Shown here piece after piece: positions 839-62,104 of a DNA stretch of 64,000 nucleotides. Positions within the stretch are counted from its first letter, which is position 1. Every line of letters begins with the position of its first letter. Source of the DNA: Linanthus parryae (taxonomy: Eukaryota; Streptophyta; Magnoliopsida; Ericales; Polemoniaceae); assembly GCA_023055425.1 (NCBI GenBank), contig JALGPY010000005.1:893501-957500 (forward strand). The letters run 5' to 3'. The position numbers and the translations under genes were made by a program. Under the pieces are notes generated by a model. The model searched no databases, was not told the origin of the DNA, and worked only from the letters and a program-made list of their open reading frames with translations.

Positions 839-1085
839 ATGTGTAAGTAAATTGTTAGTCCAGGGTAAATGTTTTATCGAGAGTGAGTCAATCTCTCCAG
901 CGTCTAGGTGTTATTTGCTTGCTGGGCTTTCTTTCAAATTTTAGTTCCGGTTCGGAAACTTGTATTCAGCTCAGATAGTTGGATCCAGTGTTTCTTTTTC
1001 TATCACTTTAGCTAATGAATTTGTTAAACTTCCATCTCCAAAACTTTCCATTACATTCTTTAACTGACTTGATGTCTGTGTGCTT

Positions 1086-1181
1086 TCTGCTATTGGTGCA
1101 TTGCTTTTAGTTGTTGCTGCTTGGTACTTGCACAAAACTATTGACAAACAGAGAAAACAAGAGGTACTAGGAGTTAGCTAA
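1086..1181 (+). pseudogene. Fossil WAKL transmembrane/juxtamembrane exon
   Basis: Thirty-one codons read SAIGALLLVVAAWYLHKTID followed by KQRKQEVLGVS and then TAA. This matches the start of the last exon of the intact WAKL gene ([30 protein letters not shown]), covering the membrane span and basic juxtamembrane stretch. The bases just upstream resemble that gene's intron 2 end, but the acceptor AG is degraded. No kinase sequence follows. This looks like a remnant of a third tandem copy between the two WAKL loci, probably deleted by unequal crossing-over (inference). Confidence 0.75.
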
Positions 1182-2520
1182 GCCTAAAAAATATCTTAAG
1201 AAGTTACTACATGATACCACAAGTTTACTGACTAATCACTTCTAGATCTCTTAATTTGCTGCATTCATCACATGAGTTTTGCGAGTTGCGGTGTTGAAAA
1301 TCTGTGTCAGTAAGACATGATGGATGTGTTGGGTATCGTGTGTGAGCGGATTGTCCCACATCGGAAAACAATTTATCAGATCTCCCTTATATAACTTGTG
1401 TGAAAGACATGCCCTGTACAATTACAATAATATCCACAGTCTCTTTTAATGGATTAACAATCTTTTAACGCTAATTAAGAATCATATATGGCTACTCTGT
1501 GACCTCCATGATGCAGCAAGGACCTTAAACTGTCACCATACATATGCAGTACGTTTCTTGGTAAAAGAAACAAAAATCTATTTAGGAGGCCGGTCATTTA
1601 TTTTCAGGATTTAATTTGATTTTTTTATTTAATGAATCACTCTGCGTTGGTAGTACAAGGTTTTACTAAAATATGAGAATCCAAAGGCAGCCATGAACAA
1701 CGAAGAAGGAAACTCGGGTTTATTGGAGTGAAAAACAATGAACGTAACAACACAATGAAAAATATATTTAGAGCCTTTACATAGGCTACAAGCATAAAAA
1801 GAAAGAACTACCCTTATTCCTGAAGTTCATATGCTAACCAGGAACTCCGTATATTCTTGTCAATAAAACAGGAGTATCACAATTTGAACCTTGTGCAAGG
1901 ATCAAGTAATTCCTCCGATAGTCACATCATCCCAATTTTCCTCCCCAATCCCAAGACATGGCCTTCGAGATCTTGAAAATATGTTATCAGTCAGTCAGTA
2001 AACAAATAGGTACCAATACTCCTGTAATCAGGCCTTTACAAGTCAACATCTTGAAGATATGATTACCAGACCAAAGACTTTATGTTCACTAATTCAAACA
2101 CACATTTACTACTTTTACTGGTACATTGACAGAGTTTGCAGTTAATGAGGAGCCAGTACAATATTGTTCTAATAATTCAGGGTCTTATCAAGTTTGCAAC
2201 CAATAAATTGAGTATAAATGTTTTCTTCAATAAAAATATCATCATTTCAACTCTTCATCTTTGAATAAGGACAAAGTCATTCCTTTCCTTCGGTAGTCAC
2301 ATCAATTTGTCAACTAGCAAACAACGGGAATAGAATTAGTAATAGTACTTAGCTAAGCCTCCTAAAACTCCATTATCTATGAAGTTGAAGTACATGACCA
2401 TTCACTTCTGTTCTTAAAATAATGCGATACCAAGACTTTTCTTGTTTTCTAATTGTATATGAATCTAATTTCTTTAGTTAGCTAGCTGCATATTCCTTTC
2501 CAAAACTTGAAAAACAAAAG
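1182..2520. other. Intergenic, AT-rich; weak LTR-like fragment; WAKL promoter region
   Basis: No coding sequence was recognised. TCCCACATCGG at 1354-1364 followed by a TATATAA-type sequence near 1388 is a combination common in plant retroelement LTR promoters; with no matching end or duplication I treat it as a possible LTR scrap. The last few hundred bases should hold the promoter of the WAKL gene that starts at 2521, and a TATA-like TGTATATGAA lies about 65 bp before the ATG. Confidence 0.35.
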
Positions 2521-16241: not shown

Positions 16242-17540
16242 TGTAATACCCCGTATTTAAGTCAGGGGTTATTTGGTCATTTCAGAAAATATTTGGAAAT
16301 TTTGAGAAATTTATATTTCAAACTTTTTCTAGACTTCTTCTTAGTTTTAAAGTATAATGGTGTCATATAGAAATTTATTTTGAGGTTATTTTGTAGTTTC
16401 TGTAAACTTGGATAATATGATATGAAACTCATTTTATATACTTGGGAGATACTTGTAAATTTTTTAAAAAATTTGATGTTGACATTTACTAACAGAGTGA
16501 TTTTATTTGGAACAATTATTTTGCAATTTTATAATTTATGAAAATTAACTTTTATGCGTTAGCTATTTATTGAAAAATACATTTTTACCACTTAATTTTT
16601 GGTATCTTCTATTTCTACCCCTCTTGCATATGAAATTTTGTAGTTATCCTAAATTTTTAGTATTTGCATGTCAACCCTCATTCTCTTGGTAATCCAATTC
16701 CTACCCCAACTATCTTGTTATGAGACTTTTATTCCATTAAAGCTCCTCTTCCACTCACATGCAAGTGACAGCGTAAACCTATCTGCTTTTTCGCAAGTGT
16801 ACGATCAAGTAATATAGAGTATGTAATTGTGACTCTGGTTGTCGAACCCACGAGAACAGTTTCAGTTTTTGCTAATCAGAATTAGAATAAGACACAAAGG
16901 TTGTAAAAAGGAGGAAGATTTGGGATTTGACTCTACTAAACTGTAATAAACAAAAACAGTAAAAAGCTTATTTTATTTTTCTGTTGATTATTTTGCAAAA
17001 ATTCTTGTGGTTGTAAAAGTCGATAATTCTAAAAAATCTAGATTCCAGGATCCCCTAGGGTTACTTTCCAGCTTTCTTAGTATATTTGATTGCAGAAACA
17101 CACGGTGGTCTTGTTTATGCCAGCATACCAATAGCACAATCTCCTCTCGGTCTCATGCACCTATCACTCTCCTGCAGATTTTCGGGTCCTCTCGGTCCAC
17201 CTAAACCTGCAGGTTCGTTCTAAGTCTGCTAGGGTTACAGGTTCTCCTCTCGGTCTCCCCCCTAAACGTCTAGCAGTTGGTCTAATGCTTCTGGGCTAGT
17301 CCCCTGATTCTTTTCACCTCTCGGTCCATCAAGGCAGAGTACTAAATCCTGTCTTTTCTTCCTAACATTCACTGGTCACTCTCGCGCACCAGATCCTGTC
17401 TGTAACACTCCTGGGTGATCAAGCCATTCATGTATGTAAATAAAATCAAAGACAGAATGATAAACAAACCATCCTGTATTAAGACTTAGCTAGCCATGCA
17501 TCTGAAAATCAAAACAACCAGGTCTGCTGAATTCATAAAC

Positions 17541-17563
17541 CCTAGGTTCACCGAGAACCTAGG
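17541..17563 (-). promoter_or_regulatory. Conserved hairpin in Athila-1 LTR
   Basis: CCTAGGTTC, a 5-base loop and GAACCTAGG form a perfect 9-bp stem. The same stem and loop occur in the Athila-2 LTRs (40853-40875 and 61302-61324) and in the other Athila-1 LTR (28939-28961), although most surrounding sequence has diverged. It lies about 200 nt downstream of the TATA box, in the predicted leader of the genomic RNA. Function is unknown; packaging, dimerisation or polyadenylation control are possibilities. Confidence 0.7.
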
Positions 17564-17766
17564 CAAAAGGTCTAGCTAACTTGCATTATTCAAAAACAAT
17601 GTTTCATAAAAAGAGAAAAGATCAAACTAGTTATTTTTCTGAAGATACTGGAAAACTGCTCCAATCCTGCTCTGCTCCAACTCCTGGCTGCTGTGAAACT
17701 GGCTGCTGATGATGATGATAGCTGTGATATGCCTTCGTAACCCTAAAACAGTGCTGGGACACCTCC

Positions 17767-17773
17767 TTTTATA
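17767..17773 (-). promoter_or_regulatory. TATA box of Athila-1 LTR (3' copy)
   Basis: Minus-strand TATAAAA in the context GCAGTATAAAAGGAGG. The nearest palindrome of the array ends 84 bp upstream on the same strand. The equivalent in the 5' LTR, which would drive the element, is at 29165-29171 with the same spacing. Confidence 0.7.
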
Positions 17774-17857
17774 CTGCCACAGTCTCCAAAACTGATGCAC
17801 GAAATTCCTGTTTTACCCTCGAAAAGACCCGTCCTGGAAGCTTCTGGAACCCGTCTG

Positions 17858-18218
17858 TGCGTTCGAACGCACACTTCCTGCGTTCAAACGCAGTGCGTAT
17901 GAACGCACACCCTTCTGCGTTTGAACGCAGGCCTTAGCCGTTTTTCCTCTTCTGGCTCCTGAACCCATGCGTTTGAACGCAGCTCCTCTGCGTTTGAACG
18001 CACCCCTTGGCCGTTTCTTCTCTTGAGTGTTGAGCCCTGCGTTTGAACGCACATTGCCTGCGTTTGAACGCAGGACTTAGCTTTCTGCACTTTGGTCTCT
18101 GACTCCTGCGTTTGAACGCAGGTTGCCTGCGTTTGAACGCAGGACTTAGCCAAATCCTGCCATTTTTCCTGCTGCTCCTGTCTTGTGCGTTTGAACGCAG
18201 CTCCTGCGTTTGAACGCA
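17858..18218 (-). repeat. Array of 12 palindromic 14-mers in Athila-1 3' LTR
   Basis: Twelve copies of TGCGT-N4-ACGCA start at 17858, 17879, 17894, 17916, 17968, 17989, 18038, 18059, 18107, 18128, 18186 and 18205. Most are TGCGTTTGAACGCA; variants have cores TCGA (a perfect palindrome), TCAA and ATGA. Most copies are paired, with starts 19-22 bp apart, i.e. about two helical turns. All lie upstream of the LTR TATA box on the coding strand. Each copy has two CpG sites. This arrangement suggests a cooperative binding site array. Short peptides rich in AFKRR or CVQTQ read from it are artefacts. Confidence 0.9.
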
Positions 18219-18510
18219 CCACTTAGCATTTTTCCTCTTCTTCTGCTCAGCCTTCCTGACACGCTGCCTCCCATCCAAGTCAATCTCATGCATTTTTCGG
18301 CACCTGTTACCTGCACATCATAACACGCACCCGCGATCATATCCAACAAACAAAAGTATGCATAAAATTACTCAAATTTTGCAATCATGATCTATAAATC
18401 TCTGCCTCGTATCAGGTGGAAAATAAGCTGAAAATGGCCAAACTCAACTCTCACAGGGTTAAAACCAATGGTAAAAAGATGTCCCAGACTAATACATTTT
18501 CAAGCTGTCA

Positions 18511-18546
18511 AAATACCCCCACACTTATCTCTGCTCGTCCCGAGCA
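18511..18546 (-). promoter_or_regulatory. Polypurine tract and adjacent hairpin of Athila-1
   Basis: On the minus strand GTGTGGGGGTATTT directly precedes the 3' LTR and is the plus-strand primer. About 21 bp from the LTR border, TGCTCG-TCC-CGAGCA (18532-18546) forms a 6-bp stem with a 3-base loop. The same hairpin occurs at the same distance in Athila-2 (41671-41685). Confidence 0.78.
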
Positions 18547-19803
18547 GACCCTTGCATACTGCCTTGCAGACCCATTCTTGCATACTTTAATTGCATACTT
18601 CCCCTCTTTCACAGATTCAAGACACAGACCAAGACACTCAATAGACGACTGACTCAGATACAGAATATACACAACTGACTCAAGACACAGCTAAATTTTT
18701 TTTCTGAAATTGAGCAACCTCTCTATCATAAACTGAAATCATCAAATCCTCACAAGCTCATTTCGAAATTTCACAACACGCAGCAAGAAATGATATAAAC
18801 TGATCCTATGCACAAATTCACTAAGGTATCCCCAAACATCCACCAAACCAACCAAGATAAGGCACGTCTTTTGACTTAGAGGGTCCATGCATCTATAGTC
18901 AACAGATAATTTTTCTTCGCCAAATCATTTGAGGTTTTCAGACCCTCTTAGCCGTTATTGCGTTTGATTTGCAAATTGTCCCATTGCTGGGAGACACAAC
19001 TCCTGTGTAATACGGCTTGACTTTAATTTCCCTCTTAAGCTCTAAATTGGATTGAATCCAAATTTTCCATGTGAATGGAAGCACATTATGTTGTTTCTCC
19101 TTTAAGCACAAAATATTATTATTATTTTTTTTTCTCTTTTATTTTTTTTTATTTTTTTTTTTTTAATCCCCTCTGTTTTTTACAACGGTGCAGTAGAGCG
19201 TTAAGAGTGCGGGCTTTTTATGATTTTCTCTTGGAACCACCTTAAGGGATGGTGGTGTACATTCTCCAACTTCGCTTAGGCTACAGATTTGTACCACATA
19301 AAACCGACTCTACACGAAGGTCCACCCCAGATTCCAAGAGTCCACCAGTTTCCACGGGAAACAGAATATTCCATTATCTAAAGACCAAATCTGCCTAGCA
19401 CACTAGAGAAGTCAAAAGTATGCCTGTATCTACTTTCCACATTCCTGAATACCCGGGATAGCCTGTCGTGAAAATTGTGCACAAAATACTAAAATTTGAA
19501 GTATCCCTGCTACGGTGCTTCCTACTCTAATAAGCTCTTTCATTGGATCCTCTTCAGTTTCTAGGTCCTAAGTTGCCCTTTCTCAAAAAATTTTTTTTTT
19601 TAAACTTATTTATTTATATTTTTTTTTTATATATATTTATCATGCAAGGTCAGAAAGGTTGGTGGGTCGACTCAACATAAAAAACGTGCTGACTCAAAAA
19701 TAAGAATAAAATGAAAATAAAATTGACAAAAATATGCTGACATGGCTATGCAGGAGGACACGATTCCCCACCCCCACACCAGAGGTGGCGCGTCCTCGCG
19801 ACT
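18547..19803 (-). other. Athila-1 3' untranslated region
   Basis: Between the ORF3 stop and the polypurine tract. No gene was recognised. It contains A/T-rich tracts (about 19120-19170 and 19590-19640) and one degenerate half-palindrome TGCGTTTGATTTGCA near 18959. Athila-2 has a corresponding 1.9-kb region that does hold a palindrome pair. Confidence 0.6.
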
Positions 19804-21515
19804 CTACTGATCTGGCCTGTAACTCGAATCTGTGTTCTCCGGAGTAGACTGGTCAGTCGGCTCGGGAGATGGTGAAGGGGTTCGCCCTCTGGCGCGTTTC
19901 CTCGCAGCATGGCGCGCTGCGGCAGCGGTACCAGCGTGGCTGGCACCGGGATGGGCACTGCTGGCCCCTGGGTCTGCATGCTCTCTCCTAGGTGGGTACT
20001 GGGTACCGGGTCTGCCGGGGTCACCGACACTGTCTGCATGTTCAGAGCTCGGTGTGGGGTCATGGCCAGAGAAGCTATCATATGGCCGGCTATCCTCCAT
20101 TGTCCAACTGGGACAATTATCACTCGAATAGCGGTCTGGAAAATTAAACCGCTTACCACGCATGTTGCTCTGAATTTCGGCGAGTGCCGCCTCATGAGCT
20201 CTCATGGCGGACGTGTGAGCGTGGTAGATATGCTTCTGGGTCTTGAACAATTTGCCAAGACCCCTGGCCATTTTCTTGACCGTCCTTACCAGGTAGTTCT
20301 GTACTTTTTCTTGGGCCTTAATTTTCTTTCTGACCCACTCCTCATGCTCAGTCCTCTCCAGGCGCCCAAAAGAGCTACGCCTGGCCCCTCTGCTGGACTG
20401 CCCCAAGTCAGGGTCTGCCTGCCTGTGTTCACTGGAACTGGCAGAACGGGGCAGTGGGAAGGGTCCTGGTAAGGCTGGTAAACCCCCATCACCGGGAGGA
20501 GGCGGTGGTGGCATGCCACCACCCCCACCCTGAGGTGGAACAACATCATCATCATCGTCCACTTGGACATATTCAGGAGGCCCGTGAACGGCCTCATGCA
20601 GCGCACATCTCATGTTCTTGTACTTGCGTACTTGAACTGGTCGAATATCTCTCAGCTCGCCAGGAATTACCACCAGATAGTCCTGCGCCATTTTTGTCAA
20701 CATCCCCAGAAGACCCAAACCCTTCTTGCTATGAGTCTCTCTCCTTTCCCGGAAAAACTCACAAATAATCTCCGGGAGGCTCACAGGCTCACGAGCCATC
20801 AGACAGTACACAAGCAGGGCAATATTATAATCAATGTGGGTAAAGTGTTTTATACCCACAATTCTGTTGTTCACCCACTCTGTCCACCATTTCGCCTCTC
20901 GAATCAGGTAGGTCGATGGCAGTTTCCGGTAGGAAGGACTCCTCTCAGGGTGGTACCAGACAGCGCCGGGGACACCAGCACACAGGGTGGTCAGGATCTG
21001 CTCACTCAACTGCTCAGATGGATGACGTCTCAGTTCCTGAAACTGACAGTCATCCAGCACTAACTCCAGACCCAGACTCTCTCGGATACTCTCTGGGGTG
21101 ATTCTAATCCATCTCTTTCTGCAGTAAATCCAGTCAATTGACTGGGCTTCACTGTTCATGCACTGCTGGAGATTGCTGTAAATCTCCTTAGCCAGCACAG
21201 AATGACCTGCAGATTGGTAAACCCAGTAAACAAATCCCCAAAATGATCCTGCCCAGTAAATTCGAACAGCTCATCCCCCATGGCTACCCTATCACGGGGA
21301 AAGGTCCTCTCAGCGGGTATGTCATACCGAATCTTTTTGTCTTGCAAAAAGAAACGGTGAGCCTCCATGTTAACAAACCTATGGTCGCAGAAATGGTTAG
21401 GCCTAAGCAAACGGCAGTCTATGATATTCAATGGTGCAATAGCCCTATCCGGCCTCATGTAAGGTTGATCCACCTCCATTTCAAGACACAAACAGTAAAA
21501 ATTGAAAATATTCAA
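19804..21515 (-). pseudogene. Athila-1 third ORF (ORF3), frameshifted
   Basis: Two minus-strand frames, 21515-21156 and 21198-19804, together match the intact ORF3 of Athila-2. Shared blocks include HRFVN, FGDLF/FGTSL, a W-Y-R segment (DWIYCRKRW), WWTEWVNNRIVGIKHFTHIDY (WWAEWVVNRVVGIKHFTYLD in Athila-2) and KGLGLLGMLTKMA. A shift near 21180-21240 separates the halves. After the conserved part comes DDDDD, a Gly/Pro-rich linker, a charged helix-prone stretch (EEWVRKKIKAQEKVQNYLV) and a basic, Ser/Pro-rich tail. It occupies the envelope position of Athila elements. I see no signal peptide or clear membrane span, so calling it an envelope protein is not supported. It resembles the plant transposon-protein family of Athila ORFs. 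Function unknown. Confidence 0.8.
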
Positions 21516-21785
21516 AGAGAATGAAAAGATAGAACCTGGGTACCCGGAGTGAATCTTACGGGTACAGATCTGGAAATATCTCTCTGAGATGAATCTGTTG
21601 GTGTTTGGATCGGCTGAGTTGGATCACCCCCACACTGTTCTTGACCTTCTGGTGGTTCTGCGGTGGTCGTCGGAGGCTGCTGGCGGCAGACTGCTCTGGC
21701 GGCTGCTAGGGCAGAGAGAATTTTCTAGAGAGAGAGTTGAAAACTGGAAGACTTGTGTGAAAATGAGTCACTGTCATCCGTACAG

Positions 21786-21793
21786 TATATATA
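21786..21793 (-). promoter_or_regulatory. Candidate internal TATA box upstream of Athila-1 ORF3
   Basis: TATATATA in the context CCCTATATATACTG on the minus strand, about 270 bp before the ORF3 start. The nearest palindrome of the internal array lies 83 bp upstream, nearly the same spacing as in the LTR (84). I infer an internal promoter that transcribes ORF3 separately from gag-pol. Confidence 0.6.
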
Positions 21794-21876
21794 GGGAAAC
21801 TTTCAGAAATTGCATAATGGCCCCAAAATTTCAAAATTTTTCAAAATTTTCCGAAATTTTTGATCCCGCTCAAATG

Positions 21877-22438
21877 TGCGTTTGAACGCAGGTCCTGCGT
21901 TTGAACGCACTGCTTAGTTTTTCTGGAAAATCTGAAATTCTGATGATCTGCGTTTGAACGCACGATCTGCGTTTAAACGCAGTGCTTGAACGTTCTCTGA
22001 ATTTTCTGGGTCTGATGAGCTGCGTTTGAACGCACATGAGTTGCGTTTGAACGCAGTGCTTATCTTCTGCATCTCGGATGAGCTGCGTTTGAACGCACAT
22101 GAGTTGCGTTTGAACGCATGCCTTTGTCTCTCTAGAAATTCTCTGCTGATTGGGTCTGCGTTTGAACGCAGAATCTGCGTTTGAACGCACGCCTTAAGAT
22201 TTTTCCACCTCTTCTTTAACGTCTTGCGTTTGAACGCACATGAGTTGCGTTTAAACGCACCACTTGGTGGCTGGAAAATTTTTCTGTCTGCGTTTGAACG
22301 CAGGTCTTCTGCGTTTGAACGCAAAAGTGTTAACCGTTTCCAGTGCTTTTCTCTCCTTTGGTGGGGCTGCGTTTGAACGCAAGATCTCTGCGTTTGAACG
22401 CACTGCGTTTGAACGCATGTCTTCTGCGTTTAAACGCA
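21877..22438 (-). repeat. Internal array of 18 palindromic 14-mers between integrase and ORF3 (Athila-1)
   Basis: Copies of TGCGT-N4-ACGCA start at 21877, 21896, 21949, 21968, 22021, 22042, 22084, 22105, 22157, 22176, 22225, 22246, 22289, 22310, 22368, 22389, 22404 and 22425. Fifteen have the TTGA core; those at 21968, 22246 and 22425 have TTAA, making them perfect palindromes. They come mainly as pairs with starts 19 or 21 bp apart. The spacers between pairs are unrelated to those of the LTR array, so only the motif and its spacing are conserved. Confidence 0.92.
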
Positions 22439-22611: not shown

Positions 22612-24579
22612 TCACGGAATGTCGAGGTAGAGTGCCTCTACCTCCATGATTTCCTGAGGATCCCTGTATGGCTTGACTCTGTTCCCATTCACCTTGAAAA
22701 CTGTATTATCCCTCGGGTTATCCAGCTCCACCACTCCCCATGATGTAATGTCCTTCACAATAAATGGTCCAGACCATCTTGAGCGCAGCTTCCCTGGATA
22801 GAATTTCATCCTTGAATTATAGAGGAGAACCTTCTGCCCGATTTCTATCTTCTTTGGTAGAATGCGGTTGTCATGCCACTTTTTTGTTTTCTCTTTATAA
22901 ATTTTGGCACTCTCATATGCAGTTTTACGGAATTCTTCCAGTTCGAGGAGTGCCATCTTCCGTTTATTTCCCGATAAACTGTGATCCATATTCAGCTGTT
23001 TGATTGCCCAGTATGCTTTGTGCTCCAATTCTACTGGTAAGTGACATGCTTTCCCAAACACCAGCTGGTACGGGGACATTCCCAGTGGGGTTTTGTAAGC
23101 AGTTCTGTATGCCCAAAGCGCATCATCCAGCTTTAACGACCAGTCCTTGCGTCCAGGATTCACAGTTTTTTCCAGTATGCTCTTTATCTCTCTGTTGGAC
23201 ACCTCTGATTGCCCGTTTGCCTGAGGGTGATAAGGCAGTGATACCTTATGGATAGACACCCCGTACTGCTTTAGAACCTTGGCAAAGACTTTATTGATAA
23301 AATGAGAACCTTCATCACTGACCATGGCCCTCGGTGTTCCAAATCTGGTAAAGATGTTACGTTTGAGGAACCTTTCTACGACGGACGCATCATTCTTCTG
23401 ACAGGCTATTGCTTCCACCCATTTTGACACGTAATCCACCGCCAATAAGATGTAGAGATTTCCCAGAGACGAAGGAAAAGGACCCATAAAATCGATACCC
23501 CATACGTCGAAAGGCTCGACTTCCTGCCAAAGTGTCATGGGCATTTCATTCCGCTGGGAGATATTTCCTGTCCTTTGGCAGCGATCACAACTCTGCGCAT
23601 AATCATGGCAGTCCTTGAAAACTGTTGGCCAGAAAAATCCTGACTGCAGCACCTTGTGAGCCGTTCTCGGTCCGCTGAAGTGTCCCCCACACTGTGCTGA
23701 GTGGCAGTGCTGAATTACCTCCAAAATTTCGTGACATGGAATGCATCGTCGGAGAATGTTATCTGCCCCTTGCTTGAACAGATAAGGGTCATCCCAGAAA
23801 TATTGCTTGCAATCTGAAATAAATTTCTTTTTCTGCCAAGGGGTGATATCTTCAGGGAGTGCTCCATTGACCAAATAATTGGCTATGGCATAGTACCAGG
23901 GCCGTCTATTGGTCTTGATCTTCATAATATGTTCATCTGGAAAATTTTCTTGAATGGGCACCACTTCTTCTGTAGGTTTTTCCAGACGAGATAGGTGATC
24001 AGCTACTACATTTTCAACTCCCTTTTTATCCCTGATTTCGACGTCAAATTCCTGCATCAGCAGGATCCAACGCAACAGCCTTGGCTTTGCATCCTTCTTT
24101 TCCAGCAAGTATTTCAGTGCACTGTGATCTGTAAAAATAATGACTTTAGAGCCTACCAGGTACGATCTGAATTTATCCAGGGCAAAAACGACTGCCAGCA
24201 GCTCCTTCTCTGTAGTCCCATAATTAATCTGCGCCTCATTCAGGACCCTGCTGGCATAGTAGATGACGCTGCACACCTTGTCTTTCCGCTGTCCCAATAC
24301 TGCACCCACAGCGTAATCACTGGCATCGCACATCAGCTCGAACGGGAGGGTCCAGTCCGGTGTTGTGATAATGGGTGCAGTCGTCAGCCTCTCTTTAAGC
24401 ACGTCAAAAGCTTCTTTGCAGGCTTCATCAAACACGAAGGGCACATCTTTTCCCAACAAATTACATAGTGGCTTTGTAATTTTTGAGAAATCTTTAATAA
24501 ACCTCCTGTAAAATCCTGCGTGGCCCAAAAAGCTCTTGATTGCCTTCACTGTGGTTGGATACGGCAGCTGCTTGATCAC
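22612..24579 (-). CDS. Athila-1 RNase H-integrase part of pol (open 655-codon segment)
   Basis: This segment continues from RT after a frameshift and is itself open to the natural pol end. It has the RT connection ([20 protein letters not shown]), RNase H ([43 protein letters not shown]), the integrase HHCC finger ([19 protein letters not shown]) and the core with [16 protein letters not shown] and [17 protein letters not shown] as the D,D,E residues. The C-terminal end ([27 protein letters not shown]) has no chromodomain, as expected for Athila. It would normally be translated as part of a gag-pol polyprotein. Confidence 0.9.
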
Positions 24580-24622
24580 CTCTATTTTTGCCCTGTCTAC
24601 TTCCAGTCCTTTACTGGAAATC

Positions 24623-26110
24623 CTAATGTCCCAGCACTATTCCTTCAGTAACCATGAAGTGGCATTTTTCCCAGTTGAGTACCAGGTTTGTTTTTCTGCA
24701 GCGAATCAGAACTCTGGCCAGGTGGTATAAGCAATCTTCAAAGCTGTCTCCGAATAACGAAAAATCGTTCATGAAAACTTCTAAATTTTTCTCTATCATA
24801 TCAGAGAAAATAGCCATCATACACCTCTGGAATGTTGCTGGAGCATTGCATAATCCAAATGGCATTCGTCTAAAGGCGAACGTTCCATACGGGCAAGTGA
24901 ACGTCGTCTTTTCTTGGTCTTCTGGATTTATATAGATCTGATTGTAGCCAGAGTACCCGTCAAGAAAGCAGTAGTAAGCATGGTGTGCTAGTCTGTCCAA
25001 CATCTGGTCCATGAATGGCAGCGGAAAGTGATCTTTCAGTGTGGCATCGTTCAGCTTTCGATAGTCCATACAGATTCGCCAGCCAGTGACAGTTCGCTGG
25101 GCGATCTGTTCCTGATCAGCATTCTGCACTACTGTAATACCCCCTTTCTTCGGTACACACTGGACAGGACTCACCCAGGTGCTGTCTGATATGGGGTATA
25201 TAATTCCTGCTTCTAACCACTTCATGACCTCCTTACGTACCACATCTTTCATAATTGGGTTTAATCTTCTTTGAGGCTGGATAACTGGCTTCTTTCCGTC
25301 TTCGATTCTTATCTTGTGCATGCAATAATCAGGACTGATTCCATTCAGGTCTGCAATTGTCCATCCTATGGCTTCTTTATGCTCTCGGAGTACCTCCAGT
25401 AGCTTTTGTTCCTGTTCCTGAGATAAAAGAGAAGAAACAATTACCGGCAGGGTATTATTTTCACCAATAAAAGCGTACCTGAGGTGTTCTGGCAACTGTT
25501 TTAATTCCAGGGCTGGTGGTTCCTGGAGTGACGGGACCAGTGTCATTTTCTGCTCGCCTCCTTCATCCCTGTATAGCCTGATCCAGCTTTCTGTTCCCAT
25601 GATCTGCTCATCCTGTTGCTCTTCTGTTTCCTCTGGGTACATGTCTTCAAATTCCTCCCATAAATCTTCTATCTCATCGCTTTCCAGATCACCAATTACC
25701 TCTACTGCAAAACAGTTTTCATGCCCATAATGATCGGGAAGCTGGAGAGATTTGAAAACATTAAATTTCACTTTTTCTTCATTGATTTGCATGGACAGCT
25801 CTCCACTTTTGCAGTTAATAATGGCTTCACCAGTCGCCAGGAAAGGTCTGCCCAGGATCAGCGGAACCTCTCCTGCCTCCATATCCAGTATCACAAAATC
25901 TGCTGGAAAAATAAGCTCTCCCACTTTTACCGGGATATCCTCAATTACTCCATAGGCAGGTTTCACGGATCTGTCAGCCATTTGAAGCATAATTCTTGTT
26001 GGGCGTGGCTCTCCGACTCCCAGACTTTTGAAGATGGTCAGTGGCATCAAGTTGATGCTGGCACCCAAGTCGCATAAGGCTTTTCCTGTGTATGCACTGC
26101 CCAGGGTCAC
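24623..26110 (-). pseudogene. Athila-1 protease and reverse transcriptase, inactivated
   Basis: Starts with the retropepsin-like core (ALCDLGASINLMPL, then ADFVILDM and PLILGRPFLATG). RT follows ([60 protein letters not shown]). The catalytic box reads VFMNDFSLF, where Athila-2 has VFMDDFSLF: the first Asp of the metal-binding pair is Asn, which should abolish polymerase activity. The frame ends at a TAG just after EGIVLGH. Compared with Athila-2, one extra base there shifts the reading frame. Upstream, one extra T in a T-run near 26155-26161 cuts it off from gag. Confidence 0.88.
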
Positions 26111-28021
26111 TGGAATAACAAAGCTGCCAGGGTCTTTCTTTTTCAGTGGTAGACCATTTTTTTACACAACTGCTCGCTTCTGCCGTCAGATTCACTGTTT
26201 CGAAGTCACTCATTCGCCTTCTACCATACAAGATATCTTTGAGAAATTTCGCGTAAGTAGGCATTTTGGCAAGTGCTTCAGCAAAAGGTATATTTATCTG
26301 TAATTGCTTGAATACCTCCAGAAATCTGGCGTAGTCTTTGCTGTCATCTCTCTTGCGTGTCTTCAGAGGGTAAGGAACTTCCTTAGAAGTTGGCACTGTC
26401 TCTGGATTAGCCTCATTCGTCTGCGCTGCTTCCTGCTCGACCGAACCCCTTTTCTGAGGGTTAGCGGTTGAACTGTTTTCCCGGTCAATCACCTCCTGTT
26501 CAATAATCTTTGACTTTTCTGCGCGTGCATGAATGGGATACGGTGGATCCTGCAGTGCAATTCCACTTCGAGTTGTGATAGCATTGATTTGAGCGCGTGG
26601 ATTGTTCACTGTGTTAGATGGTAAATTCCCTGGGGCTCGTTCTGCCTGGTTCTGTGCAAGCTGTCCATTCTGTACTTCCAAGTTGCGGATAGCAATCTTC
26701 ATCTGGCTTACATCAGCAGTTAGTGAGTCCATCTGTGCGAATCTAGTTTCCAACTGCTTATTGAATTTCTCCATATAGGACTCAAAATGTTGCTGAGACA
26801 GGTTTAGTTGTGGTGCTGCTTGTGCAGGCTGAGCTGGAGCTGTCTGTTGTGCCTGTGGCCTGTGCTGGAATCCTGGTGCATATACTGCTGCATTGGGATT
26901 GCCGTAGCGAAATCCTGGATGGTCACGTGTGCCTGGTCTGTAGCGACTAGGATCCCACTGCTGCTGAACATAGTTGGCATCTTCGGTCTGAAGCTCCAGA
27001 ATTGCTGCGTCAAAGTCAGGTTCGTCCACTGATGCCACCGGCTTCTTTTCTGTATACACCTTCTTGACTAGGTCCTGTACCACTTTCGTGAGATTGTCAA
27101 TCCTGTCATCAACCACTGGTTCTGCTGCTGCTGTGAGCCTGCGGTCATCAAACAGGCGAGTATCCTGTTTGGCTAATTGCTTCATCAGTTCGTATGCTCC
27201 ATATTTATCCACATGGTATAGAAAGTTACCCCCAGCTTCCCTGTCAATCCTGTCTGCATTCTCCCTGTCAAGTGCATGGTAGAATACCTGCAGAATCTTT
27301 GCGTCCCCGAAGCCGTGATTGGGGCATTTTTCACGAGTCTCATCAGCCTGTCCCATGCGTCTACCACTGTCTCCCCCATCTGCTGTTTGAAAGATAGAAT
27401 CTCACTCTGCAGCTTGATAACGCGGGATGCAGGGTAGAATTTTGCCAAGAAATCAGCAACACACCCCTCCCAGGTAGTGATAGACCTCGGTGGTCTTGCC
27501 TCCAGCCAATCCTTTGCTGTCCCGAACAAACAGTATGGGAATAAAATCAACTTTAGCGTGTCCGCTTCGACTCCTCTATACTTAATCTTGTTGCAGTAAT
27601 CCTCAAATTTTCCAAGGAAGTCGTTTGGATCTTCATCTGCTTTCCCATTAAAAGGACAATGGGTCTGGGCGGTCTGAATGGTGGATGATTTCAGGTCGAA
27701 GTGCTCTGCTGTAATGGGAGGCACTACAATAGCTGGTTGATGTCCTCCGGTTGGGACTTCAAAGTTTTCGACCAGTGCCCTTCCAGACCTGTTATAAGTC
27801 CTCTGATTGTTCCTGGCAGCAAAACCTGCTGCTATCAGCTCTTCAATATAAAGAGCCATCTGTGCTGGAGTACGTTGCGGCTGTCCTGTGGGTGTTCCTG
27901 TTTCGGTTGTGGTGTCTTCTCCGTGCTCAGACATCGCGGCTCGGTGTCTGCGACTTTGCTCTCTGAAAAGTTTTTCGGGATCTTCGAGTGGTGATACCAG
28001 CTTGCGGGGCAATCTGGGCAT
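25974..28021 (-). pseudogene. Athila-1 gag, frameshifted
   Basis: Two frames (28021-27185 and 27356-25974) correspond to one gag of the Athila-2 type starting MPRLPRKLVSPLEDPEKLF. The capsid-like retrotransposon gag region reads CPFNGKADEDPNDFLGKFED, LFGTAKDWLEARPPRSITTW, DFLAKFYP and MGETVVDAWDRL. A one-base deletion near 27330 moves the frame at LMRLVK. The second part continues CPNHGFGDAKILQVFYHALD and a Gln/Pro-rich stretch. No CCHC zinc knuckle is visible. It ends at the gag/protease frameshift described for the next segment. Confidence 0.87.
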
Positions 28022-28165: not shown

Positions 28166-29908
28166 TGACAGCGTAAACCTATCTGCTTTTTCGCAAGTGT
28201 ACGATCAAGTAATATAGAGTATGTAATTGTGACTCTGGTTGTCGAACCCACGAGAACAGTTTCAGTTTTTGCTAATCAGAATTAGAATAAGACACAAAGG
28301 TTGTAAAAAGGAGGAAGATTTGGGATTTGACTCTACTAAACTGTAATAAACAAAAACAGTAAAAAGCTTATTTTATTTTTCTGTTGATTATTTTGCAAAA
28401 ATTCTTGTGGTTGTAAAAGTCGATAATTCTAAAAATCTAGATTCCAGGATCCCCTAGGGTTACTTTCCAGCTTTCTTAGTATATTTGATTGCAGAAACAC
28501 ACGGTGGTCTTGTTTATGCCAGCATACCAATAACACAATCTCCTCTCGGTCTCATGCACCTATCACTCTCCTGCAGATTTTCGGGTCCTCTCGGTCCACC
28601 TAAACCTGCAGGTTCGTTCTAAGTCTGCTAGGGTTACAGGTTCTCCTCTCGGTCTCCCCCTAAACGTCTAGCAGTTGGTCTAATGCTTCTGGGCTAGTCC
28701 CCTGATTCGTTTCACCTCTCGGTCCATCAAGGCAGAGTACTAAATCCTGTCTTTTCTTCCTAACATTCACTGGTCACTCTCGCGCACCAGATCCTGTCTG
28801 TAACACTCCTGGGTGATCAAGCCATTCATGTATGTAAATAAAATCAAAGACAGAATGATAAACAAACCATCCTGTATTAAGACTTAGCTAGCCATGCATC
28901 TGAAAATCAAAACAACCAAGTCTGCTGAATTCATAAACCCTAGGTTCACCGAGAACCTAGGCAAAAGGTCTAGCTAACTTGCATTATTCAAAAACAATGT
29001 TTCATAAAAAGAGAAAAGATCAAACTAGTTATTTTTCTGAAGATACTGGAAAACTGCTCCAATCCTGCTCTGCTCCAACTCCTGGCTGCTGTGAAACTGG
29101 CTGCTGATGATGATGATAGCTGTGATATGCCTTCGTAACCCTAAAACAGTGCTGGGACACCTCCTTTTATACTGCCACAGTCTCCAAAACTGATGCACGA
29201 AATTCCTGTTTTACCCTCGAAAAGACCCGTCCTGGAAGCTTCTGGAACCCGTCTGTGCGTTCGAACGCACACTTCCTGCGTTCAAACGCAGTGCGTATGA
29301 ACGCACACCCTTCTGCGTTTGAACGCAGGCCTTAGCCGTTTTTCCTCTTCTGGCTCCTGAACCCATGCGTTTGAACGCAGCTCCTCTGCGTTTGAACGCA
29401 CCCCTTGGCCGTTTCTTCTCTTGAGTGTTGAGCCCTGCGTTTGAACGCACATTGCCTGCGTTTGAACGCAGGACTTAGCTTTCTGCACTTTGGTCTCTGA
29501 CTCCTGCGTTTGAACGCAGGTTGCCTGCGTTTGAACGCAGGACTTAGCCAAATCCTGCCATTTTTCCTGCTGCTCCTGTCTTGTGCGTTTGAACGCAGCT
29601 CCTGCGTTTGAACGCACCACTTAGCATTTTTCCTCTTCTTCTGCTCAGCCTTCCTGACACGCTGCCTCCCATCCAAGTCAATCTCATGCATTTTTCGGCA
29701 CCTGTTACCTGCACATCATAACACGCACCCGCGATCATATCCAACAAACAAAAGTATGCATAAAATTACTCAAATTTTGCAATCATGATCTATAAATCTC
29801 TGCCTCGTATCAGGTGGAAAATAAGCTGAAAATGGCAAAACTCAACTCTCACAGGGTTAAAACCAATGGTAAAAAGATGTCCCAGACTAATACATTTTCA
29901 AGCTGTCC
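28166..29908 (-). repeat. Athila-1 5' LTR (1,743 bp) with promoter
   Basis: The upstream LTR in element orientation, so the one whose promoter would be used. It has the same array of twelve dyads (29256-29616), TATAAAA at 29165-29171 and the 9-bp-stem hairpin at 28939-28961. It differs from the 3' LTR at about eight visible sites, including a single-base difference in a C-run and a T/G change near 28709. Confidence 0.92.
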
Positions 29909-40082: not shown

Positions 40083-41064
40083 TGATGCGCAAACTAACGT
40101 GCTATCGCAAGTGTACAAATCTTGTAATACCGGGTGCAATTAGACTCGGATTATCGTTCCCACGAGGACTGTTTCGGGTTTACTTACGTTGTCAGTTTCG
40201 GTTTTCCAAGAGTAGTAACCAGGAGGAGTAGGATGTGATTATAATGACTAAACTAAAAAAAGAAATTAAAAACGTAAACGTGAACGTAAATATTTTTTGT
40301 GACGTTTTCTAAAATAAGCTGATTTTGTTGTAACGATAATAGATGAAGACAAGGCTCCAAGATCCCCTAGGGTTTCTACAGATTTCAGTTTTACATTCGA
40401 TTATGAAAACACTCAGCAGTTTCGATATCTGTGCAACGTACCAGTTGTGCAGTGACTTTTCAGATTCCACACGTAGTCCCGATCCTGCAGACTTTCGGAT
40501 TCTTGTTAAGCTGCCTAAGTCCGCAGTCTCGGTATAATCCTGTTAGGGTTTCTAACCTGTCCGAATGGCCCGGGTCAAATTCTCTAACAGTTGGTCTCAC
40601 GTTTTTCGATGCTAGCCCTATCTCCCTTTCTCTGGTCGGTCTATCAGGGTAAGGTACTAAATCCCGGTTTTTCTTCCTAACCCTAACTTGACGTTTTCAC
40701 CTACAAGCTCGGGTCTATAGCAATCCTGGGTGATCAATCCTATCATGCATATACGATAATAATCAAAACCAGAATAACAGATACAACTTGCTGAATTAAG
40801 ATAATCATCATGAATCCATAAACGTAGTAATCATAAAATCTGAGTACGAAACCCTAGGTTCACCGAGAACCTAGGTGAAAAGTTTAGCGACGACTAGACA
40901 TAGTACAAAACGCAGTTTCTGAATATAAAGAGAGAAAACGAAATCAAACTAAGTCTTCGAATCTCGAATGCTTTCGTGCTCTCCGTGAATGCTCTGACTT
41001 GCCCTTCGGTTGTGCTGAGAATTGTGTTGTGTCTCCGTGTCCTCAAAACGAGTCTGGACGAGTC

Positions 41065-41072
41065 TTTAAATA
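41065..41072 (-). promoter_or_regulatory. TATA-like box of Athila-2 LTR (3' copy)
   Basis: TATTTAAA on the minus strand, with the proximal palindrome 83 bp upstream. The 5' LTR equivalent is 61514-61521 with the same gap. The sequence is a variant TATA element, so the call rests partly on the matching distance in Athila-1. Confidence 0.6.
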
Positions 41073-41155
41073 GTGTTGTTTCCCGAAAACGCTTGTGCCC
41101 GAAATTACGGAATCTGCCATCGGTCCACCGTCTTTGACCAAAAGTCAAAACTGGC

Positions 41156-41240
41156 TGCGTATATACGCAGGGTTGCGTATATACGCAACCAGAACCTTCC
41201 AACCAACCCCCATCTCCCTCCTTGCCTGCGTATATACGCA
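41156..41240 (-). repeat. Three palindromic 14-mers in Athila-2 3' LTR
   Basis: TGCGTATATACGCA at 41156, 41174 and 41227. The second is extended to a 20-bp perfect palindrome (GGTTGCGTATATACGCAACC) and the third to GCCTGCGTATATACGCAGGC. The first two form a dyad-of-dyads with 4 bp between them. In the 5' LTR (61605-61689) one copy has core ATGT, and the third dyad extends to a perfect 28-bp palindrome (61669-61696). Confidence 0.92.
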
Positions 41241-41650
41241 GGCAGGGGGTGGAGATGTGGGCCCCACTTGGTCCTTTGGTGGGCCAGGTTTGGTCCCCTG
41301 GGTCCCACTCTTCTGCCTGACGCTCCCGGTTTGCCTCTTCGGTGTTCTCCCGCTTTTCCGTGCTTCCGTCGTGTCCCGGTTTTTTGCACGTTTCCCGAGA
41401 CGGTCCCGGCTTGGTCCCGGCACGCTTCCCGATGCACCTCCCGAACATGTTCCTGAAAAGGCAACACGAACGAAAACCCGCGATCATATCCAAATATAGC
41501 AAGAAATAAGCAGAAATCCAGCAAGTACAAATAAACGTCTCGTTCTAGATTCCCGGGGCATTCTAAGGCATTTTCCGGCAAAAACCGCTAATTCCGACAC
41601 AAATACTCGTGAAATCAGGCTAAAAGATAACCCCTAATTGGGCGTTATCA

Positions 41651-41685
41651 AATACCCCCGCACTAAACGTTGCTCGTCCCGAGCA
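41651..41685 (-). promoter_or_regulatory. Polypurine tract and adjacent hairpin of Athila-2
   Basis: CGGGGGTATT on the minus strand abuts the LTR. TGCTCG-TCC-CGAGCA at 41671-41685 is identical to the Athila-1 hairpin and sits 20 bp from the border. Confidence 0.78.
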
Positions 41686-43335: not shown

Positions 43336-43367
43336 TGCGTATATACGCAGGTCTGCGTATATACCCA
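43336..43367 (-). repeat. Palindrome pair downstream of Athila-2 ORF3
   Basis: One perfect TGCGTATATACGCA (43336) and one with a single change (TGCGTATATACCCA, 43354), 4 bp apart. The flanks CTGTT..AACCAG are nearly those of the pair at 46162. It lies about 230 bp after the ORF3 stop on the coding strand, so ORF3 is bracketed by the motif. Athila-1 lacks a clear equivalent. Confidence 0.8.
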
Positions 43368-43597: not shown

Positions 43598-45508
43598 TCA
43601 CTCGTCCGGAAAAAATGTCGGGTCTGACCCGGTCTCGGACGTATCGGATATGCTACCCGGCGAGCTGCTCTCTGAATCAGTCCTAAATACCGGCTGACGT
43701 GCCCGTGTACGGGGCCGGTAATCCGAGGACTGTGACTCGGACCCAGTCCAACTGCTAGGTGGCTGGGATCGCAAAGTCGTCCTGCCACTCGAAGGCTGCT
43801 GAGTACGGGCCCCAGTCTGCTGGGTACAGGTCCCAGCCTGCTGGGTACGGGTCCTAGTCTGACGACCTGCAGGCTGCCGGGATCGTGTCCCTGGCTGCCG
43901 TCTCTCCTGTCGGGCAGGTGGCTGTGATGGCTGAGTCGGTGGTGGTGGCTGGGTCGGGGGTGGTGGAGCAGACGTGCACTCGCTAGAGTCCCCGTCATCC
44001 GACCATCCCTCGGTAAAGCTGCTGGAGTAGGTGGGTGGAAAATACAGCGGAAGTGGCGGTTCTCGGCCTGCGTGCCGAGCCGCATCCCGCTGCTCCTCTC
44101 GAATACTAGCTAGGGCAGCCTGGGTGTCCTTCGTGACCTTCCGCTGAGTCTGGCGGTTATGCGTCAACGCTCTCCAAAGCTTGCCCACGCTCTCATACAC
44201 CTTCTCTCCTATGGACTTGCGTCCGCCCTGACACCCCTCAAATCTCTCGTCCACTCGGGGCAGTCTACGTGGCGGGGCCGGTCTAGCTCGTGGGGTCGGG
44301 TTGGCCCGTGGGGCCGGCTCACCTCTCTGACGGGCAGGCTGAGGCTGGGCATTCCTCTCAGTCCCCTGTCTACTCGACTCGGGGCGCTCACTCTCTCTAC
44401 TAGTACGGCATCGCCGAAGTCCGGCCGATGCCTGGCGACTGACTGGTCGCTCCTGAGTCGAACGCCTCCTAGGGGCAGGGGCAGGGGCAGGTGCAGGTGC
44501 AGGAGCCGGGTCCTCCTCCATAAAATCATCCTCATCGAGGTCAACGACTGGCTGTGGTGGGCCCGGGTGACGAGCGATAAGCTTCCTATAAGGCCGTGGC
44601 CTAGGAGGCTGTAGGTCACCCTCTAAATCATGCATCGGAACCTTAAACTCCCGTGCCAGTTTGGCAATGAGGTTGGCGTACCCCAATCCCTTATGGCTAC
44701 CGAAGCAGTTCCGCTCCTGCATGTACACCCAAATCCGACGAGGAATGTCAACCTCTCGTCTCAGAACAAGGCAATAGACTAAGAGTACGTACTCAAAGTC
44801 AAGGTAGGTAAAGTGTTTAATACCCACGACCCTGTTCACTACCCACTCGGCCCACCACCGTGGCGGGCCGGTAATAAAACGAGAATGCAATTTCTTGCCT
44901 ATCTCGCCTGTCCCCTCTCTCTCGAAATGGGCACCCGGGTACCCCCCAGTCACAACCCGCAAAAGCTCAGCATCGCTAGGCGGGTAATCTGCACACTCAG
45001 CATATGCGCACGAGAAATGGCGCATCGGAATCTGGTACGCTTGGCGGATGGTATCCGCCGTGAGCAACAGAAACGTACGCCGCAAATAGACCCATCGAAC
45101 ATCCCCGTTGGCCTCACCCTCCCCCTTGTGCATGAGGTTCGCGTAGAACTCACGCACCAAATCAGAACTGGACAAGTCCGGAAACCCCGCTAGGGACGTT
45201 CCGAAAATGTCCGGCCGACTCGCATAATCGGCCATCTCTGGCGGCATGTTCGTATGGTCGACCTCAAACTGGAAGTCTATGGGAAGGCTATGACTCATTT
45301 TGGTTCCGGTCATAAAGTAAAACTGGGCATGATGGTTGACGAACCTAAAACTGTCAAACAACGTAGGGGTAAGCTCATCCTCCTCGTATTTAGTCGGGAT
45401 GTTATCTCGCTCGGGGTCTACGACGGGCACGTGAAACTCCATAACAGACCAAAACCTCGTAAAACGTGCCGACTCGGGGAAATAAGCTAGAACGTGAAAC
45501 GTGCACAA
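43598..45508 (-). CDS. Athila-2 third ORF (ORF3), intact
   Basis: An open frame of 636 codons. The ATG at codon 23 (45442-45440, MEFHVPVVDPERD) aligns better with Athila-1 and gives 614 residues. The conserved first half contains FRFVNHHAQFYF, VRWVYLRRTFLLL, WWAEWVVNRVVGIKHFTYLD and KGLGYANLIAKLA. The second half has an acidic patch (DLDEDDFMEEDP), a (PA)n run, long Arg/Pro/Gln-rich segments with TQQ repeats, and an acidic Ser-rich end; it looks disordered. No signal peptide or membrane span is apparent. It belongs with the Athila extra ORFs of unknown function. It may have its own promoter (46077-46083). Its integrity, while pol is broken, is notable. Confidence 0.85.
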   Translation of the reverse strand: MCTFHVLAYFPESARFTRFWSVMEFHVPVVDPERDNIPTKYEEDELTPTLFDSFRFVNHHAQFYFMTGTKMSHSLPIDFQFEVDHTNMPPEMADYASRPDIFGTSLAGFPDLSSSDLVREFYANLMHKGEGEANGDVRWVYLRRTFLLLTADTIRQAYQIPMRHFSCAYAECADYPPSDAELLRVVTGGYPGAHFEREGTGEIGKKLHSRFITGPPRWWAEWVVNRVVGIKHFTYLDFEYVLLVYCLVLRREVDIPRRIWVYMQERNCFGSHKGLGYANLIAKLAREFKVPMHDLEGDLQPPRPRPYRKLIARHPGPPQPVVDLDEDDFMEEDPAPAPAPAPAPAPRRRSTQERPVSRQASAGLRRCRTSRESERPESSRQGTERNAQPQPARQRGEPAPRANPTPRARPAPPRRLPRVDERFEGCQGGRKSIGEKVYESVGKLWRALTHNRQTQRKVTKDTQAALASIREEQRDAARHAGREPPLPLYFPPTYSSSFTEGWSDDGDSSECTSAPPPPTQPPPPTQPSQPPARQERRQPGTRSRQPAGRQTRTRTQQAGTCTQQTGARTQQPSSGRTTLRSQPPSSWTGSESQSSDYRPRTRARQPVFRTDSESSSPGSISDTSETGSDPTFFPDE

Positions 45509-46161: not shown

Positions 46162-46275
46162 TGCGTATATACGCAGTACTGCGTATATACCCAACCAGAA
46201 AACAACCAAAAAAAGAAAAAAATTATTTTCCTGCCCACGGGTTGCGTATATACGCAGGGGCTGCGTATATACGCA
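46162..46275 (-). repeat. Palindrome array between integrase and ORF3 (Athila-2)
   Basis: Four dyads at 46162, 46180 (one base changed), 46243 and 46262, in two pairs. The pair 46243/46262 with its flanks makes a 43-bp inverted repeat with 19-bp perfect arms and a 5-bp centre (46239-46281). It occupies the same place as the 18-copy array in Athila-1 but has the TATATA core of its own LTR. Confidence 0.92.
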
Positions 46276-52104: not shown

Positions 52105-52118
52105 GTCTCCCACTTGCA
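52105..52118 (-). promoter_or_regulatory. Copia polypurine tract
   Basis: CAAGTGGGAGAC on the minus strand lies directly before the 3' LTR and directly after the polyprotein stop. Confidence 0.8.
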
Positions 52119-57654: not shown

Positions 57655-57667
57655 GGCTCTGATACCA
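57655..57667 (-). promoter_or_regulatory. Copia primer binding site (tRNA-iMet)
   Basis: TGGTATCAGAGCC on the minus strand, one base inside the 5' LTR, is complementary to initiator tRNA-Met. Confidence 0.9.
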
Positions 57668-57668
57668 C

Positions 57669-60531: not shown

Positions 60532-62099
60532 TGATGCGCAAACTAACGTGCTATCGCAAGTGTACGAATCTTGTAGTACCGGGTGAAATTAGACTCGGAT
60601 TATCGTTCCCACGAGGACTGTTTCGGGTTTACTTACGTTGTCAGTTTCGGTTTTCCAAGAGTAGTAACCAGGAGGAGTAGGATGTGATTATAATGACTAA
60701 ACTAAAAACAGAAATTAAAAACGTAAACGTGAACGTAAATATTTTTTGTGACGTTTTCTAAAATAAGCTGATTTGGTTGTAGCGATAATAGATGAAGACA
60801 AGGCTCCAGGATCCCCTAGGGTTTCTACAGATTTCAAATTTACATTCGATTATGAAAACACTCAGCAGTTTCGATATCTGTGCAACGTACCAGTTGTGCA
60901 GTGACTTTTCAGATTCCACACGTAGTCCCGATCCTGCAGACTTTCGGATTCTTGTTAAGCTGCCTAAGTCCGCAGTCTCGGTATAATCCTGTTAGGGTTT
61001 CTAACCTGTCCGAATGGCCCGGGTCAAATTCTCTAACAGTTGGTCTCACGTTTTTCGATGCTAGCCCTATCTCCCTTTCTCTGGTCGGTCTATCAGGGTA
61101 AGGTACTAAATCCCGGTTTTTCTTCCTAACCCTAACTTGACGTTTTCACCTACAAGCTCGGGTCTATAGCAATCCTGGGTGATCAATCCTATCATGCATA
61201 TACGATAATAATCAAAACCAGAATAACAGATACAACTTGCTGAATTAAGATAATCATCATGAATCCATAAACGTAGTAATCATAAAATCTGAGTACGAAA
61301 CCCTAGGTTCACCGAGAACCTAGGTGAAAAGTTTAGCTACGACTAGACATAGTACAAAACGCAGTTTCTGAATATAAAGAGAGAAAACGAAATCAAACTA
61401 AGTCTTCGAATCTCGAATGCTTTCGTGCTCTCCGTGAATGCTCTGACTTGCCCTTCGGTTGTGCTGAGAATTGTGTTGTGTCTCCGTGTCCTCAAAACGA
61501 GTCTGGACGAGTCTTTAAATAGTGCAGTTTCCCGAAAACGCTTGTGCCCGAAATTACGGAATCTGCCATCGGTCCACCGTCTTTGACCAAAAGTCAAAAC
61601 TGGCTGCGTATATACGCAGAGTTGCGTATGTACGCAACCAGAACCTTCCAACCAACCCCCATCTCCCTCCCTGCCTGCGTATATACGCAGGCAGGGGGTG
61701 GAGATGTGGGCCCCACTTGGTCCTTTGGTGGGCCAGGTTTGGTCCCCTGGGTCCCACTCTTCTGCCTGAAGCTCCCGGTTTGCCTCTTCGGTGTTCTCCC
61801 GCTTTTCCGTGCTTCCGTCGTGTCCCGGTTTTGTGCATGTTTCCCGAGACGGTCCCGGCTTGGTCCCGGCACGCTTCCCGATGCACCTCCCGAACCTGTT
61901 CCTGAAAAGGCAACACGAACGAAAACCCGCGATCATATCCAAATATAGCAAGAAATAAGCAGAAATCCAGCAAGTACAAATAAACGTCTCGTTCTAGATT
62001 CCCGGGGCATTCTAAGGCATTTTCCGGCAAAAACCGCTAATTCCGACACAAATACTCGTGAAATCAGGCTAAAAGATAACCCCTAATTGGGCGTTATCA
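60532..62099 (-). repeat. Athila-2 5' LTR (1,568 bp) with promoter
   Basis: Three dyads (61605, 61623, 61676), TATTTAAA at 61514-61521 and the hairpin at 61302-61324. Differences from the 3' LTR include core changes in one dyad (ATGT) and an extended 28-bp palindrome. Confidence 0.92.
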
Positions 62100-62104
62100 A
62101 TAGC

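Follow-up and report, generated by a model that had tools for sequence, protein, structure and literature searches.

Among described systems, the closest precedent for the paired motif arrays reported here appears to lie in Sireviruses, a group of Copia elements. Passages of the Sirevirus study (PMC2829016) place palindromic repeats (RM) in the long terminal repeat (LTR) upstream of the TATA box. In nine Sireviruses with an envelope (ENV) gene, those passages report that the linker holds more RM copies, nearly all of them (77 of 79) before ENV, and 12 of the 13 RMs listed have a CGG-CCG core. An internal ENV promoter is regarded there as supported but lacking conclusive identification, and the proposals made for the expression of plant envelope-like open reading frames (ORFs) in general comprise splicing, suppression of a stop codon and an internal promoter. 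Work on Athila6A of Arabidopsis (PMC4977677) has, in the part consulted, characterised transcript starts and named a promoter of the ENV ORF. Here we analyse a 64,000-nt stretch of Linanthus parryae DNA (the window; GCA_023055425.1, contig JALGPY010000005.1, positions 893,501-957,500, forward strand), in which two LTR retrotransposons carry arrays of the spaced palindrome TGCGT-N4-ACGCA both in their LTRs and between pol and a third frame, ORF3. These arrays form a genuine cis-element of some Athila families, strongly maintained and amplified on a large scale, and most likely consist of clustered sites for a dimeric factor that serve two promoters. A literature search by title and abstract returned no report of the motif or of such arrays in Athila; the literal motif string led to one unrelated paper, on DNA conductance.

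Palindrome arrays in two elements of the window

The window contains 52 exact TGCGT-N4-ACGCA sites, where dinucleotide shuffles predict 0.01. Forty-two lie in the first element, Athila-1 (12 + 18 + 12), exactly as counted in the initial annotation, which had missed ten further exact copies in the second Athila (41156-61689; three in each LTR, three in the pol/ORF3 interval, one after ORF3). The arrays and their carriers are as follows.

16766..18510, minus strand: Athila-1 3' LTR (self-comparison)
17767..17773, minus strand: TATAAAA, 84 bp downstream of the last LTR copy; sole match to the word list in the Athila-1 3' LTR
17858..18218, minus strand: Athila-1 3' LTR array, 12 copies of TGCGTN4ACGCA (exact motif scan)
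19804..21198, minus strand: Athila-1 ORF3 (envelope-like), open frame with PF20167 (E 3.1e-16)
21787..21793, minus strand: TATATAT, candidate ORF3 promoter, 83 bp downstream of the last internal copy and followed by a CT-rich tract
21877..22438, minus strand: Athila-1 internal array in the pol/ORF3 interval, 18 copies (exact motif scan)
22612..26110, minus strand: Athila-1 pol frames: protease, reverse transcriptase (RT), RNase H, integrase (Pfam)
27185..28021, minus strand: Athila-1 gag frame (PF03732)
28166..29908, minus strand: Athila-1 5' LTR (self-comparison)
29256..29616, minus strand: Athila-1 5' LTR array, 12 copies (exact motif scan)
40083..41651, minus strand: second Athila 3' LTR, with an array of 3 exact copies at 41156-41240 and TATTTAAA 83 bp downstream
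43336..43367, minus strand: second Athila, pair 3' of ORF3, 1 exact copy and 1 with 1 mismatch
43598..45508, minus strand: second Athila ORF3 (PF20167)
46162..46275, minus strand: second Athila internal array in the pol/ORF3 interval, 3 exact copies and 1 with 1 mismatch
60532..62100, minus strand: second Athila 5' LTR, with an array of 3 exact copies at 61605-61689

Both elements are oriented on the minus strand and show gag, the order protease-RT-RNase H-integrase, long LTRs (~1.7 and ~1.6 kb) and an extra ORF between pol and the 3' LTR. We take them to be Athila on the basis of domain order, the name being that of the initial annotation. Athila-1 is bordered by GCAAG at both ends, and its LTRs differ by 5 substitutions in 1743 aligned positions. 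PF20167 is the sole domain that Pfam reports in ORF3, no homologue at E 0.001 was found among the 7998 scored protein database candidates sharing most words, and the structure model is too poor for use (mean predicted local distance difference test score, pLDDT, 37).

Every half-site word in the Athila-1 arrays is part of an N4 palindrome (24 of 24 in the LTR array and 36 of 36 in the internal array). The centres, on the element strand, are TCAA in 9 of 12 LTR copies, with TCAT, TTGA and TCGA once each, and TCAA in 15 and TTAA in 3 of the 18 internal copies; those of the second Athila, in a plus-strand reading, are ATAT in nine cases and ATGT in one. When bases 1-63,500 were scanned for recurring palindromes with a spacer, whatever their sequence (arms of 5 bp with at least three different letters, spacers of 0-10, at least four per 1.5 kb), no other motif emerged, the remaining hits being words that lie within its copies or between them; the sites of the second Athila are too few per 1.5 kb to reach the density threshold. 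CpG dinucleotides in Athila-1 sit mostly inside half-sites (24 of 27 in the LTR array, 36 of 42 in the internal array).

Many copies are paired, as the initial annotation had noted, but its spacing of 19-21 bp proves too narrow: close neighbours in Athila-1 are 15, 19, 21 or 22 bp apart, and in a survey of 18 arrays or loci the 50 centre-to-centre distances of at most 24 bp comprise 48 of 18-22 bp and two of 15 bp. Its suggestion that copies are phased by about two helical turns is not supported by all in-array distances taken together, for which the phase vector at 10.5 bp is 0.08 in the LTR and 0.06 internally. Among the periods tried, the nominal maxima were 0.34 for the LTR, at a period of 10 bp, and 0.29 for the internal array, at 10.25 bp. 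Neither these vectors nor the neighbour distances establish a strict two-turn phasing.

Comparison with Sirevirus and Athila6A elements

As in the Sireviruses described in PMC2829016, many palindromes cluster in the LTR before a TATA-like word and recur before the envelope-like frame, ORF3, which is seen in 5 of 7 elements. In both systems the core half-sites are kept while the bases between them vary, and the repeats are rich in CpG; the observed/expected ratio is 0.76-1.63 in seven arrays here, versus 0.55-0.56 in the remaining Athila-1 interior. Set against the RM minimum of eight copies per element, Athila-1 has 12 per LTR and 18 inside; in the second Athila, each LTR has 3 exact copies and the interior 4. 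The carriers differ, being Ty1/copia there and Ty3/gypsy here, where RT and RNase H precede integrase and gag matches PF03732. The half-sites differ too, TGCGT/ACGCA in place of CGG/CCG, and copies here often form close pairs 18-22 bp apart. By analogy, the Athila arrays thus seem to work like Sirevirus repeats without being one. Athila6A offers a likeness of another kind, as an Athila element with an internal promoter for its envelope-like ORF; the part of PMC4977677 consulted does not mention a palindrome array, and the promoter here is solely a predicted one.

Constant half-sites in diverging arrays

A search allowing two mismatches finds no half-site change in the 30 copies of Athila-1, that is, in 300 positions, while the spacers are little alike, and the view of the initial annotation that the motif is kept as spacers change is therefore borne out. 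Across seven arrays, 66 copies with up to two mismatches contain 5 substitutions in 660 half-site positions; since each affected copy carries a single substitution, there is no compensated pair. One such change occurs among the 12 copies of the internal array at locus L044, where, on the minus strand, several of six N5 pairs are also framed by CTGTC / GACAG-like flanks, making a larger imperfect inverted repeat. Twelve loci together with both window elements contain 109 exact and 21 near copies (1-2 mismatches), some of the near ones being chance matches. In all four motif variants the half-sites are constant, whereas the centre is TCAA, TCAG or ATAT and the spacer N4 or N5.

Comparison of the flanks bears on how the two Athila-1 arrays arose. 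The 24 bp before the groups in the LTR resemble those in the internal array (identity 0.41 versus 0.29, z 8.8), and the two arrays therefore probably descend from one common unit whose spacers have diverged with the half-sites unchanged. The 24 bp after the groups show no likeness (z -0.2). That no larger block was duplicated, as initially proposed, thus agrees with the sequence after the groups but not with that before them. Compared with those of locus L008, the Athila-1 flanks rise above background on neither side (z -0.9 to 1.9).

The motif in the genome

The genome (1.514 Gb, 121 contigs) contains 52,724 exact TGCGTN4ACGCA matches; the reversed pattern occurs 5,358 times, a count that neighbours spaced by 18 bp have probably raised. 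The ten spacings N5-N14 combined give 15,285 matches versus 52,724 for N4 alone, and their reversed control, at 32,333, exceeds the forward count, which we read as neighbouring copies at least 19 bp apart. Loci were sampled on contig 1 from the first matches listed. Both array positions, LTR and after pol, are present in the 7 elements where both are visible, all of them selected by motif. ORF3 lies past the internal array in five; the exceptions are L006, where none was seen, and L046, where the sequence covered stops short. Besides Athila-1 and the second Athila of the window, the dual-array elements are these.

Contig 1, 1.008-1.020 Mb: element L004/L005
Contig 1, 1.201-1.206 Mb: element L006
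Contig 1, 2.516-2.539 Mb: element L010-L012, probably a single element with an insertion
4.012-4.024 Mb and 2.726-2.733 Mb: two elements with the N5-spaced motif

The N5-spaced type occurs on contig 1 (for example TGCGTATTATACGCA), and a TCAG/TCAA type is found at L008 and L009, where the LTR alone is visible. One N5 element has 6 copies per LTR and, in the pol/ORF3 interval, 12 copies in six pairs (N5 in 10, N4 in 2; one copy with a mismatch); the second N5 element likewise bears arrays at both positions. Over 186 residues, the pol of the former shares 92% identity with its counterpart in the second Athila. The ORF3 of the former, in the parts aligned by BLAST, is 27% identical to that of Athila-1 and 48% to that of the second Athila. 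We note that three ATAT-type elements have an extra motif copy between ORF3 and the 3' LTR (window 43336-43367; L005, 5751; L012, 2890).

PF20167 failed as a guide to motif-bearing Athilas: none of ten windows, each taken upstream of one of the 150 PF20167 matches listed, contains the motif with up to two mismatches (letters or frames were read for six of them; L034, L035, L037 and L040 were scanned for the motif alone). The motif therefore marks some Athila families, not all. Related Athilas without arrays, which the initial annotation had named as speaking against its proposal, are thus in part encountered, in this domain-selected set. Copies are also absent from nine further stretches of contig 1, 10 kb each (L024-L032), which says little with ~3 expected at the genome mean.

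PF20167 itself seems, from sequence, to be shared with Copia elements. At L041 an Athila LTR adjoins the PF20167 ORF, while L033 and L039 look Copia-like by eye; at L042 (3-587), a Copia-type RNase H frame, with 74 of 198 columns (37%) identical to the window's Copia pol, is followed by the PF20167 match. Pfam gave no match on L039 or L042. The Copia element of the window, with identical 1440-bp LTRs, is nested in the second Athila (50665-59108), and the frames at the left end of the window (35-5065), judged by eye, resemble plant receptor-like kinases.

TATA-like words downstream of the arrays

In 13 of 15 LTR arrays, the last copy is followed at 76-88 bp by a TATA-like word, compared with 0.2 when the same stretches are shuffled, the range having been fixed after the first cases. 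Of the two remaining arrays, one has such a word at 98 bp and the other none. Downstream of the internal arrays, a CT-rich tract (at least 9) beyond 70 bp is present in 5 of 6 stretches inspected, one of the six being the motif-free L036. An internal ORF3 promoter is a plausible candidate on this evidence; passages of PMC11410651 contain nothing on an internal promoter.

Discussion

We consider it reasonably probable that the arrays are clustered upstream activating sites that two RNA polymerase II promoters of a single retroelement share and that a dimeric nuclear factor reads. The cluster in the U3 part of the LTR would serve the genomic gag-pol RNA, and that in the pol/ORF3 interval a separate mRNA for the envelope-like ORF3. 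The factor, more likely encoded by the host than by the element, would read TGCGT/ACGCA half-sites 4 or 5 bp apart, and the neighbour spacing of 18-22 bp would let several dimers sit side by side. Clustered dyad-symmetric sites at two positions, kept amid diverging spacers, are as expected for the dimeric-protein site proposed in the initial annotation.

Several observations weigh against two such promoters. The LTR core promoters are mutually homologous, and their shared TATA distance is therefore not independent; it is best read as conservation more than as independent recurrence. Just 2 of 7 internal arrays have a TATA-like word at 76-88 bp (83 and 78 bp), the others having one at 66, 61 or 118 bp or, in two cases, none, so that an exact 83-bp distance was dropped as a general rule. 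Moreover, TATATAAAA, a TATA word, lies 82 bp past the opposite end of the Athila-1 internal array. Loci L036 and L038 combine a PF20167 ORF with an Athila context, including an Athila-like pol end, and lack the motif; between pol and ORF3 they have TACGC words and a different palindrome, CTGGCC...GGCCAG, found in L038 by palindrome scan and in L036 (347-520) by tandem-repeat search. Passages of a review (PMC7264820) name the 5' LTR as the source of env-like transcripts, with splicing in the case of Bagy2, and splice acceptors have been predicted for Athila in passages of PMC2829016.

The initial annotation had also likened the half-sites to those of NAC-family factors. TGCGT indeed agrees with the NAC consensus T[G/A]CGT, and the VOZ/NAC bipartite sites described in passages of PMC6321167, PMC4844398 and PMC4106437 share the GCGT/ACGC half-site and dimeric binding. 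The geometry of the dimer does not agree: the VOZ, JUB1, ORS1 and ATAF1 bipartite sites and a footprinted NAC site read CGT-N7/8-ACG in the same sources, in contrast to N4 throughout both Athila-1 arrays and N5 in the sister family. A NAC or VOZ protein as the binder is thus not supported by bipartite spacing. NAC binding could nevertheless occur, since one half-site is enough in vivo for AtNAP and ATAF1 according to part of a review; in the part seen of another NAC paper, spans between half-sites vary.

If not a host protein, the reader of the sites might be the element's own ORF3 or Gag-Pol product, activating or de-silencing its own two promoters. The array precedes ORF3 in all five elements where ORF3 is seen, and L036 and L038, with another palindrome at the same place, would fit a changing pair of self-recognition partners. 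We regard this as improbable: the half-site is the same in Athila-1, the second Athila and the N5 element despite the divergence of their ORF3 products, which a conserved host factor fits better, and neither the single Pfam domain of ORF3 nor its unusable structure model lends support. Nor do we give much credit to a functionless palindrome carried along by tandem amplification of a ~70-bp unit, for example through template switching in reverse transcription, although units do repeat, BLAST links both Athila-1 arrays at ~70% identity and the upstream flanks of the groups have a common origin. Repeats carried passively would be expected to decay to the same degree throughout, whereas here spacers have diverged beside unchanged half-sites, which moreover persist across families with a different centre or spacing.

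Very unlikely, in our judgement, is an inverted repeat acting in the transcript (packaging, splicing or a small-RNA source). A five-base stem closed by a loop that varies between 4 and 5 bases would suit a hairpin, and passages of PMC5311732 describe palindromes in the LTR regulatory region of maize Copia elements as small-RNA hotspots, but it is the letters, not merely the pairing, that are kept across families, and none of the substitutions found is compensated. Arrays serving as silencing targets, their CpG-bearing sites read by a host repressor or methylation-recruiting factor, would accord with the concentration of CpGs in half-sites; an element would, however, be expected to shed such sites and not to multiply them to the number found genome-wide, and we hold this reading, too, to be highly doubtful.

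Clustered sites for a dimeric factor, serving two promoters of some Athila families, thus remain the reading that we prefer. More speculatively, and with little expectation that it will hold, one dimeric factor, possibly the ORF3 product, may switch genomic RNA and envelope-like mRNA together through half-sites that stay fixed from family to family as the sequence between and around them is replaced, a two-promoter circuit that Athila and Sireviruses would have reached independently. If the preferred reading is true, the same cis-regulatory layout would exist in two retrotransposon superfamilies, and a single plant genome would hold ~52,700 potential binding sites. The presence of the motif at the LTR and before ORF3 offers a direct test of the modes proposed for the expression of envelope-like ORFs.

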